The position numbers and the translations under genes are program-made. Of a stretch of DNA of 33,255 nucleotides, positions 7,459 to 11,338 are shown in pieces; the stretch's first letter is position 1; each line of letters begins with the position of its first letter. The notes beneath the pieces were generated by a model. It saw only the letters and a program-made list of their open reading frames with translations, did not search any database and was not told the DNA's origin. The DNA comes from Nitrospinota bacterium (GTDB lineage Bacteria > Nitrospirota > Nitrospiria > Nitrospirales > UBA8639). The stretch is from contig JACZVJ010000024.1 of NCBI GenBank assembly GCA_022572725.1, positions 1-33,255 of the forward strand, in the 5' to 3' direction.

Positions 7459-8781
7459 TTAAGAAACAAACGTTCCTTGGCTTTGGGCCATACGTGTATC
7501 CAGCACCTTAGTGATAAACTCAAGGTTCCGCGGGACAACCCCTTGATGTTCACGAACAACTTCCCTAGCTGCCTGGCCCATCTGCTCAGTCCAATCGCGA
7601 TTTCGAAACGACTTAAGAAAGAGCTCTGCTAACTCTTCCCCGTTTTGAACCTGGACACCCCCTCCACCCTGAAGTAAAAGCCCTGCAATCTCCCTACAGT
7701 GGTCGGTAAAGGGACCAAAGAAAACGGGTTTTCCCCACCCCGCCGGTTCGAGGAGATTATGCCCGCCAATGGGAACGAGTGTACCACCGACAAATGCCAC
7801 CCAGGCCCAGGAATACACACTGGCTAATTCCCCACGAGAATCAAGAATGATAACTCGGGGTCCCTCCGCACTTGGGGCCCAATCGTTTTGGTTTTGAATC
7901 CGGCTCCTACGCACAACCTTCATACCATAGGCTTGAACTCTATTCTCAAGCCGATCGGCTCGTTCGATGTGGCGAGGGGCAAGAAGAAGGACTACCGTTG
8001 GATACTCCCGACACACTCGTTCGTAACATCGCAAAAGAGCTTCCTCTTCCTCAGCATGCGTACTGCCAGCCACAATCAACTCTTCCCCAAGGGCCAAACC
8101 GATTGAGCCGGGCTTGATACGGGGGATTCCATTCACTTCCCAATTCTGTCCCTGATCGAACTTCATGTTACCGGTCCGATGGACCTGGTTCCGAGCCATG
8201 CCAAGTTGCGTCATTCGCTGCAAATCCCGATCAGACTGTACCAAGCATAGGCTCACCGTTGACAGCACCCGAGCCATAAAACCCCTGATCAGCCTGTAAT
8301 GTCGAAAAGAACGGGAAGAGAGGCGGCCATTGACCAAGATGGTTGGCACACCATGACGATGAAGGCATCTCAGTAGATTTGGCCACAATTCGGTCTCGAC
8401 GAAAATAAACGCTGCAGGACGGATCCATCGCACATACCGCAAGACCGTCCATGGCCAGTCCAATGGCAAGTAACAATGGTCCGCAATACCCGATAATCTC
8501 TGTTCAACAGCCTCTCGGCCGGTTTCTGTGACCGTTGAGATTCTCATCTTAAGAAACGGGTAACGGGCACGGAGACCCAAGACCAAGGGGATCACTGCTA
8601 AAACTTCCCCAAGTGAAACGGCGTGGATCCAAAGAACCGGCTGGTGAGCCGGTTCAAGTACTGGGAGTCCAATCCCCATTCGTTGCAGGAGCCCCCGCCG
8701 GCATCGCTTTTTCACCATAAGGGTGAGAACCACCAGGGGCGCTGTTACAAAGAGAACCAGATTATAGACCAGGTACCACAT
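7459..8781 (-). CDS. waaA: 3-deoxy-D-manno-octulosonic acid (Kdo) transferase
   Basis: WaaA transfers one or more Kdo residues from CMP-Kdo to lipid IVA. The 440-residue protein begins with a hydrophobic anchor (residues 1-22), followed by the family block WIHAVSLGEVLAVIPL, whose E59 matches the catalytic Glu of the family. FVETELWPNLLRC and NGRLSSRSFRHYR are further signatures, and the CMP-Kdo site includes AGSTHAEEE and GGHNLLEPAGWGKPV. Whether it adds one, two or more Kdo cannot be told from sequence. It lies between the lpxJ candidate and lpxK, on the same strand. Confidence 0.95.
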   Translation of the reverse strand: MWYLVYNLVLFVTAPLVVLTLMVKKRCRRGLLQRMGIGLPVLEPAHQPVLWIHAVSLGEVLAVIPLVLGLRARYPFLKMRISTVTETGREAVEQRLSGIADHCYLPLDWPWTVLRYVRWIRPAAFIFVETELWPNLLRCLHRHGVPTILVNGRLSSRSFRHYRLIRGFMARVLSTVSLCLVQSDRDLQRMTQLGMARNQVHRTGNMKFDQGQNWEVNGIPRIKPGSIGLALGEELIVAGSTHAEEEEALLRCYERVCREYPTVVLLLAPRHIERADRLENRVQAYGMKVVRRSRIQNQNDWAPSAEGPRVIILDSRGELASVYSWAWVAFVGGTLVPIGGHNLLEPAGWGKPVFFGPFTDHCREIAGLLLQGGGGVQVQNGEELAELFLKSFRNRDWTEQMGQAAREVVREHQGVVPRNLEFITKVLDTRMAQSQGTFVS

Positions 8782-8904: not shown

Positions 8905-9557
8905 TCATTTCTGGTTGACCACCACGTCAGCTTTGCGAGTCATCCCTAGTAACACATTTTCAAGTTCACGCTGCTTCACTTCCATATCAACTTTGCCCGC
9001 GGACCGGGAAACCCAAATTGGGTCCCCCCACAAAAAAAGGGCTTGCCCAAGGGGGTAGGGAATCATGAACCGATCCCAACTGGAAAAGACTTTTTTTTTG
9101 AGCACGAAAACACCAACGGAACGATGGGAAGGCTCGTCGCCCTCGCTAAACGAACAATTCCTGGTTGTACCACATGCCTTGGTCCCTGAGGACCGTCCGG
9201 GGTGACCACGAGATCGGCTCCGCTTCGACCAAGGCGAAGGAGTTGGCGAAAGGCGATCGTCCCACCCCGGGTCGTCGATCCTCGAACGGCGTGAAATCCG
9301 AATCGTTTGAGGATACGATACACCAATTCCCCATCCCGGTGTTGGCTAATCAAGATATGCGCGTTTCTGCCCCTGTATGCCAGAGGCATCATTAATTGTT
9401 GACCGTGCCAAAACGCAATAATCATGCCTTGGCCCTGACGATAGAGCCCATCCACCCATTCTTCCCCTTCCACGTCAAGCCGGACCACCCGCCCCAGACC
9501 ACGGATCAACCACATCCCAAGAAGAGAGAACAGCCATAATTTGAGCGAGCCTGCCAC
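8905..9557 (-). pseudogene. DUF374 acyltransferase (LpxJ-type lipid A acyltransferase candidate), split by a frameshift
   Basis: Two overlapping reading frames together encode one DUF374 protein. The first (from 9557) carries IIAFWHGQQL (46-55), SQHRDGE, RGSTTRGG (92-99) and TPDGPQGPR (119-127), then runs out of frame after SCSKKK. The missing C-terminal part, KVFSSWDRFMIPYPLG onward, continues in the -1 frame to 8905, giving about 217 residues, a normal length. The break lies in a run of nine A residues (9091-9099). The zero-frame codons TCA AAA AAA AAG contain the A AAA AAG heptamer used for -1 frameshifting in dnaX, so recoding or polymerase slippage could restore the protein. A sequencing error or a true mutation is equally possible. 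Family knowledge: LpxJ, a late lipid A acyltransferase of Helicobacter and Campylobacter, is a DUF374 protein. The position between msbA and waaA fits. Confidence 0.75.
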
Positions 9558-9580: not shown

Positions 9581-11338
9581 TCAGGTCATCAGGGATTCCA
9601 CCGCGAGTTCCTGGAACTGAGTTCGATAAAGCTTTTTATACATTCCATTCCTACGAAGAAGCTCGGAATGAGTCCCGGTTTCGATTATCCGCCCTCGATC
9701 CAGCACAACGATTCGGTCGGCATGTTGGATCGTCGAAAGCCGATGAGCAATCACAAGAGTCGTTCGGTCTTTCATCAAATTGGCCAGGGCTTCCTGGACC
9801 AACCGTTCGGACTCTGAGTCGAGGGAGGAGGTGGCTTCATCCAGGATCAACAGGGGTGGATCACGCAAAATCGCTCTTGCAATGGCTAATCGCTGACGCT
9901 GGCCCCCGGACAGTCTCACCCCGTTTTCCCCCACCACGGTTTCCAAACCCATGGGCAACCGCTCAATAAACTCCCACGCATGGGCGGCCCTGGCTGCTTC
10001 GATAACCTCGTTCTCACTGGCATCAACTCGTCCATACGCGATATTTGTTTGTATCGTTTCATCGAACAACACGGTTTCTTGGGAAACAATGGCAATCTGC
10101 CGGCGCAGGGATGCAAGCGTCACATCTCGAATGTCTTGCCCGTCAATCAGAATGGCCCCCTTGGTTGGAGTGTAAAATCTAAGGACAAGACTCACCAACG
10201 TGGTTTTGCCGCTACCACTACTCCCAACCAATGCGACGACCTCCCCAAACCGAACCTTCACATTCACTCCAACAAGAGCCGGTTCCGAGTTGCCCTCATA
10301 ACAAAAACTGACATTCTGAAATTCTACGGTCTGCGCAATGGGTCGCAATGGCTTTCGTCCCCGATCTTCGTCTATTTCATTTTCAAGTTCCAATACCTCA
10401 AAGACCCGTTGACCCGCAGCGATCGCCATCTGGATGGAGGAATTAGCACCCGCAAGACGCCGAACGGGAGCATAGGCCATGAACATCGCCGTTAAAAAGG
10501 AAAAAAATGCTCCAGGGGTCATGGCCCCGGAAATAACAAGGTGCCCCCCATACCAGATGATAATCGCAACCCCGGACACCCCGATGGATTCCATGAGGGG
10601 GGAGGCTAGCGCCGAGAGTTGGGCGGACTTCATGCTGGCGCGCATATACGACGTGTTGCTCTTTCCAAACCGCTCCCCTTCTTCTTCTTCCCTTCCATAG
10701 GCTTTCACGATCCGAATTCCAACGAAGGCTTCTTTCAAAGCAGAAGCCATGTCTCCCATAAACACTTGCCCTCGAGTAGCCAACCTCCTCAACCGGTAAC
10801 CAATCCGCACCAGAGCATACCCGGAAATAGGAAGGACAAAGATCAGCACGGTTGCCAGCTTCCAATTCTGATAAAACACCACTCCAATCATGGCGAGAAA
10901 GGTGAGCCCTTGTTGGAAGATATCCTTCAGGACATTGGGGATCGCATTGGCCATTTGATTGACATCATTCATCACCCGTGACACCAAACGGCCTGAAGTA
11001 TTCACATCGTGAAACCGAAGGGGCAAACGAACCAATTGATCGAACAGTTGCTGGCGAATGTTGGCGACAATATGATTACCGACATAACTCATGAGGTAAG
11101 CCTGGCCATAGGCAAACAGTCCCTTGAGAAGGGCCACGCATAACAAGGCAACCGGCAAAATTATAAAGAGGGACTGATCTTTCTCAATAAAGATGCCATC
11201 CAATACGGGTCGTACCAGCCAGGCATAGGCGGCGGTAAGGCCAGCCACGCAAGCCGAGCACAGAGCCGCAGCGACAAGCCGCATCCGGTAGCCGCGAAGG
11301 TAGTGGAGAATTCGGAGAAAGGTGGTCACCCCTGACAC
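9581..11338 (-). CDS. msbA: Lipid A export ABC transporter, permease/ATP-binding protein
   Basis: This 585-residue half-transporter has an N-terminal six-helix membrane domain (about residues 1-320) fused to an ABC ATPase. ATPase motifs are VGSSGSGKTT (Walker A, near residue 375), LSGGQRQRLAIARAIL (signature), LLILDEATSSLDS (Walker B) and the switch histidine in VIAHRLSTI. It flips lipid A-core across the inner membrane, homodimeric in the known family members. The LPS context supports MsbA over a generic multidrug exporter. Translation starts at a GTG that overlaps the lpxB stop by 13 bases, implying translational coupling. The lpxJ candidate follows after 23 bases. Confidence 0.93.
   Translation of the reverse strand: MSGVTTFLRILHYLRGYRMRLVAAALCSACVAGLTAAYAWLVRPVLDGIFIEKDQSLFIILPVALLCVALLKGLFAYGQAYLMSYVGNHIVANIRQQLFDQLVRLPLRFHDVNTSGRLVSRVMNDVNQMANAIPNVLKDIFQQGLTFLAMIGVVFYQNWKLATVLIFVLPISGYALVRIGYRLRRLATRGQVFMGDMASALKEAFVGIRIVKAYGREEEEGERFGKSNTSYMRASMKSAQLSALASPLMESIGVSGVAIIIWYGGHLVISGAMTPGAFFSFLTAMFMAYAPVRRLAGANSSIQMAIAAGQRVFEVLELENEIDEDRGRKPLRPIAQTVEFQNVSFCYEGNSEPALVGVNVKVRFGEVVALVGSSGSGKTTLVSLVLRFYTPTKGAILIDGQDIRDVTLASLRRQIAIVSQETVLFDETIQTNIAYGRVDASENEVIEAARAAHAWEFIERLPMGLETVVGENGVRLSGGQRQRLAIARAILRDPPLLILDEATSSLDSESERLVQEALANLMKDRTTLVIAHRLSTIQHADRIVVLDRGRIIETGTHSELLRRNGMYKKLYRTQFQELAVESLMT

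Follow-up and report, generated by a model that had tools for sequence, protein, structure and literature searches.

The lpxJ gene carried by a lineage of Nitrospirota is probably a gene of programmed transcriptional slippage, in which one A added to the transcript would join two reading frames into one. The gene lies on the minus strand of the window, as the whole 33,255-nucleotide stretch of DNA analysed is called here, and encodes a DUF374 protein of the LpxJ type in two parts. The zero-frame ORF (9063..9557) starts with GTG at 9557, ends at a TGA stop (9063-9065), and specifies 164 aa, namely LpxJ residues 1-156 followed by an unconserved tail; it matches the DUF374 profile PF04028 (E 1.6e-27) with 95.3 bits, above the curated cut-off of 26.8. 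Positions 9091-9099, T9 when read on the plus strand, form a run of nine A in the gene, read as TGC TCA AAA AAA AAG TCT, and here the frame changes by -1. Past the run, the -1 frame reads ...SKKKVFSSWDRFMIPYPL..., and ends at a second TGA (8905-8907). This C-terminal part (8905..9102, minus strand) was recognized by tblastn and HMMER over query residues 153-217, and one extra A at the run places both parts in a single frame. An earlier note, made from the letters of the window, had described two frames encoding one LpxJ-type protein, a -1 switch at nine A, an A_AAA_AAG heptamer in the correct phase for -1 slippage, and a normal junction restored by a tenth A. All these readings hold, provided that the positions are taken on the minus strand.

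The earlier note had also called for a comparison with related genomes, and the same split at an A run was found in 170 others. When the joined protein was compared with genomes of the same family, class and phylum, most relatives were seen to carry it in two pieces lying in two frames, the frame state being assigned from where the Trp-Asp motif lies. By reading the junction DNA, the split was located at the same codon in at least 171 genomes of 46 genera and 11 families. Run length is A9 in 153 genomes, A10 in 17 and A11 in one, and never falls below nine A. Four of the split families are placed outside the class of the window, and have TCA-A10 (f17), CGC-A9 (f18), CGT-A9 (f21) and TTA-A9 (f28), respectively. 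One added A restores the frame in 170 of the 171 split genes; the exception (L009, genome G008) has A10 and one base fewer downstream than its relatives, and one A fewer would restore its frame. A run of at least nine A at a conserved frame break, with a homologous order of the ORFs in 171 genomes, is a hallmark of programmed transcriptional slippage. The A9 and T9 runs of the genome from which the window derives were inspected, and are only 16 in 3.17 Mb; because such runs are so rare, and because the same codon is split in 170 other genomes, coincidence is not a satisfactory explanation. A sequencing or assembly error could be suspected, since the break coincides with a homopolymer and the genome is a draft of 221 contigs. 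However, the break recurs in the 170 other genomes, among which are four assembled as single contigs (G013, G014, G028 and G092), and the homopolymer error considered by the earlier note has to be discarded.

The part of the gene beyond the run is under selection in the -1 frame. Comparison of moderately diverged genes in pairs gives the tail region a dN/dS of 0.16 when it is read in the -1 frame, as against 1.14 for the zero frame and 2.47 for the third; the value for the first part of the gene is 0.075. Within 48 codons, stops occur in the -1 frame in none of 157 genes, in the zero frame in 148, and in the third frame in 130. The zero-frame tail, ranging from 7 to 93 residues when counted from the Cys or equivalent residue preceding the run, evolves as if it were not read in that frame, and is unconserved. 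Selection on the second frame, expected of programmed transcriptional slippage, is thus apparent from the value of 0.16. An inactivated gene, the other option raised by the earlier note to explain the break as an accident, does not fit the purifying selection past the break, and error and decay taken together can be given almost no credit. Since the break is conserved in 170 other genomes and the out-of-frame part is under purifying selection, lpxJ reads as a working gene, neither wrongly sequenced nor decayed. In one gene of family f8 (L094) the third frame, which one A fewer would open, stays open past the lpxJ terminus and merges with the frame of waaA, so that about 500 residues would follow the run in a fused protein.

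The enzyme could in principle be made of two chains translated separately, the C-terminal one starting inside the gene, and the -1 frame is indeed often open for some way upstream of the run. Yet, 146 of 172 genes lack ATG, GTG and TTG codons in the -1 frame in the 30 codons before the Trp, and the protein is a single chain in unbroken relatives. A separate C-terminal chain has accordingly a negligible probability, and was rejected for the lack of a nearby start codon.

The setting of the gene points to lipid A synthesis. Its upstream neighbour (9581..11338, minus strand) is an msbA-type ABC exporter with ABC_membrane and ABC_tran Pfam domains, as in loci L040, L065 and L083, and its downstream neighbour (7459..8781, minus strand) is the Kdo transferase gene waaA (PF04413), as in L065 and L083. 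The cluster includes LpxA-like, LpxI, Gfo/Idh, LpxB, MsbA, the split gene, WaaA, LpxK and heptosyltransferases. The same genome, which is 99% complete, has no match to LpxL/LpxM (PF03279), and the split gene is its single match to the DUF374 profile; the product is therefore probably the only late lipid A acyltransferase of the microorganism. The activity of Rickettsia typhi LpxJ is abolished by mutating W60, H61, D86, D132, W172 or D173 (PMC6148475). The joined protein of the window has W50, H51, D75, D121, W161 and D162, a set which, judged by spacing, matches the R. typhi residues. W161 and D162, the counterparts by spacing of W172 and D173 (W172A and D173A are inactive, PMC6148475), are the fifth and sixth residues past the three Lys, and are encoded in the -1 frame only (TGG GAT, 9073..9078, minus strand). 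As the essential Trp-Asp pair is specified by the slipped frame alone, the unslipped product should be inactive, though the truncated protein may possibly have a function of its own. The predicted structure of an unbroken relative (P0001, pLDDT 94) resembles PlsC, PatA and LpxM. Essential residues with matching spacing, lipid A gene setting and predicted fold liken the split gene to the DUF374 protein LpxJ of Helicobacter, Campylobacter and Rickettsia (PMC6148475). It differs in being split in the lineage of the window, whereas the relatives read outside the phylum are unbroken, and in that acyl transfer is here predicted from genes.

At the junction some features are fixed and others vary. 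In some genes the run opens on the last base of TCA (Ser) or TTA (Leu); in others TCT, CGC or CGT precedes it and its first A opens the first Lys codon, and all the genes of this second type that were read have AAA as their third Lys codon. Immediately after the run, 115 of the 171 genomes have C, 40 have G and 16 have T; in the zero frame, the run ends in an AAC codon in 106 or 107 of 161 split genes and in an AAG codon in 36. Elsewhere in the same genes, TCA makes up 8% of the Ser codons and AAA 40% of the Lys codons. Two other genes of the genome of the window with an in-frame A9, used as controls, keep at least nine A in 2 of 25 and 3 of 30 same-family loci, against 37 of 38 for lpxJ, a comparison for which Fisher values are only descriptive because relatives are not independent. 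To judge from these junctions, conservation bears on the length of the run, at least nine A in either codon register, while the register, the preceding codon and the next base vary.

According to the model favoured here, RNA polymerase would slip back on the A9 run and add one A in a fraction of the transcripts. Only the latter would carry a single open frame and direct the synthesis of full-length LpxJ; faithful transcripts would yield a protein which stops shortly past the run, has an unconserved tail, lacks the Trp-Asp pair and is presumably inactive. We infer that the slip takes place in transcription and not on the ribosome, that it involves a fraction of the transcripts, and that it serves to fix or modulate the amount of LpxJ; slippage most likely sets how much of the active enzyme is made. 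Of the options left by the earlier note, recoding or transcriptional slippage is the one that gains from the conserved break, the selection on the -1 frame and the persistence of at least nine A. Features counting for a slippage gene are also the joint loss of break and run in four lineages, described below, and the location of the Trp-Asp pair beyond the run. Counting against it are the correct phase of A_AAA_AAN throughout, two unbroken genes which keep the run (G039, with A10, and G135, with A9), and the G008 gene, which needs one A fewer.

The slip might alternatively be made by ribosomes, either by -1 frameshifting of the E. coli dnaX type at A_AAA_AAG, A_AAA_AAC or A_AAA_AAA, or by sliding on the run, full-length LpxJ being thus translated from faithful A9 mRNA. 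A_AAA_AAN is correctly phased in every split gene read, and E. coli ribosomes are known to slide along consecutive AAA codons (PMC4363877). This explanation is nevertheless unlikely, although it deserves more consideration than the other alternatives. Nine A are the floor for the run, while a -1 heptamer needs fewer. The single added base required by 170 of 171 genes is the commonest polymerase slip: when transcription slips at a homopolymeric run, the usual outcome is one extra base, and slippage increases sharply as the run lengthens (PMC5574713). Nine is the length at which many bacteria start avoiding A or T runs in genes (PMC1088944). Genes for both tRNA-Lys(UUU) and tRNA-Lys(CUU) reside in the genome, so that the former is not the sole reader of AAG; the same is true of Thermus, where two tRNA-Lys species have been offered as a reason for polymerase slippage over ribosomal frameshifting in dnaX (PMC5009743). 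A Shine-Dalgarno-like element was detected near the run in only one of 161 split genes. RNA folding on either side of the run, calculated on single sequences, gave no signal of structure relative to shuffled sequences, with mean z values of -0.2 to -0.6. Both results favour a transcriptional slip, as does the prevalence at the end of the run of AAC, which is a poor slip codon in bacteria. The dnaX-like slippery heptamer highlighted in the earlier note is hence really present and in phase in the window, but most relatives carry A_AAA_AAC or A_AAA_AAA in its place, and for the reasons given it is the less likely mechanism.

Unbroken relatives lacking an A run, which the earlier note had regarded as contrary evidence, do exist. 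The gene is unbroken and has no run in families f20, f23, f24 and f34 of the phylum, and outside the phylum (L040-L064). Several of the f20 and f24 genomes inspected (G278, G283, G294, G299, G302, G314 and G338) have two LpxJ-like genes, and the copies read are unbroken and devoid of the run. Within the class, however, unbroken genes are mostly later reversions nested among split relatives. Trees built with the junction masked indicate about six returns to the unbroken gene, and in four of them (family f4, genera g42 and g4, genome G168) the run was lost together with the break. The run was kept in the remaining two. In G135 (L068) the A9 is intact, and an extra base a few codons upstream puts the C-terminal part in frame, altering the residues just before the run. 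In G039 (L004) a long run occupies the usual site of a gene which is nevertheless in frame (TCA AAA AAA AAA GTG, A10), a combination seen in no other gene; either a natural reversion or, the genome being 88% complete, an assembly slip may explain it. The trees fit the view that the split arose early, in or before the class of the window; a second gain outside the class is possible, and deep branches among families are poorly supported.

Bases are easily gained and lost at A9 runs, and in-frame revertants must therefore arise often. An in-frame gene should be one common mutation away, yet the gene stays broken. As revertants almost never persist, the out-of-frame state itself would seem to be selected, and not just tolerated. 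The same ease could suggest phase variation, in which replication slippage would generate populations with both on (A10) and off (A9) alleles, a notion in keeping with a homopolymer in a gene of cell-surface biosynthesis and with the in-frame A10 allele of G039. Many in-frame alleles should then be encountered, but there is one in-frame A10 against 171 split genes, and the frame of genes with A10 and A11 remains displaced the same way. Phase variation is thus highly improbable, and was rejected because in-frame alleles are nearly absent.

Transcriptional slippage which restores a frame is already known, and the lpxJ case appears unusual in its reach and in the seemingly useless faithful product. 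The dnaX gene of Thermus thermophilus (A9), and similarly dnaX of Chlorobi, are likewise chromosomal housekeeping genes with nine or ten A (PMC1088944, PMC3711429, PMC5009743). Thermus and the lineage of the window also share two tRNA-Lys species, an expected mixed population of mRNAs, and no need of ribosomal stimulators. In Thermus, however, it is faithful copying that yields the long product, and each of the two products has a role, whereas the active product of lpxJ needs the slip and the faithful one seems inactive. Closer in logic are mxiE and spa13 of Shigella and tssM of Citrobacter rodentium, in which the functional full-length protein cannot be made unless an A or T run has first caused slippage, reported to be approximately 20-30% efficient for spa13 and tssM (PMC1088944, PMC5009743, PMC4256274). 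These are narrowly distributed secretion-system genes; lpxJ is in contrast a core envelope gene kept by the greater part of a phylum. E. coli dnaX, a case of programmed -1 ribosomal frameshifting, shares with the window the in-phase A_AAA_AAG; lpxJ differs in that it lacks both kinds of stimulator, Shine-Dalgarno-like and structural, is accompanied by a second tRNA-Lys, keeps a run of at least nine A, and has mostly A_AAA_AAC in the relatives. In the open-licence literature, outside which many journals fall, no report was found to connect slippage or recoding of this gene with Nitrospira, lipid A or DUF374, and DUF374 and lipid A are both absent from the main text of the GeneTack survey of 2013.

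Apart from mobile elements and secretion systems, few bacterial genes with conserved transcriptional slippage are known. In most of a phylum, and presumably in the nitrite-oxidizing Nitrospira as well, a core gene of the envelope seems here to be unable to work without slippage. Automatic annotation may truncate the gene or call it a pseudogene, and the lipid A acylation of these bacteria could be misjudged from genomes. More speculatively, and with rather little confidence, the run may be regarded as a sensor kept since an early ancestor within the phylum: nucleotide pools, temperature and elongation speed could all influence how often the polymerase slips, and this rate would set the share of active LpxJ. 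Were this true, lipid A acylation would be tuned to the growth state of the cell with no protein regulator.

The largest known group of slippage users is that of IS elements. In the genome of the window, an in-frame A9 run (L221, contig C106) resides inside a gene which resembles an insertion-sequence transposase.
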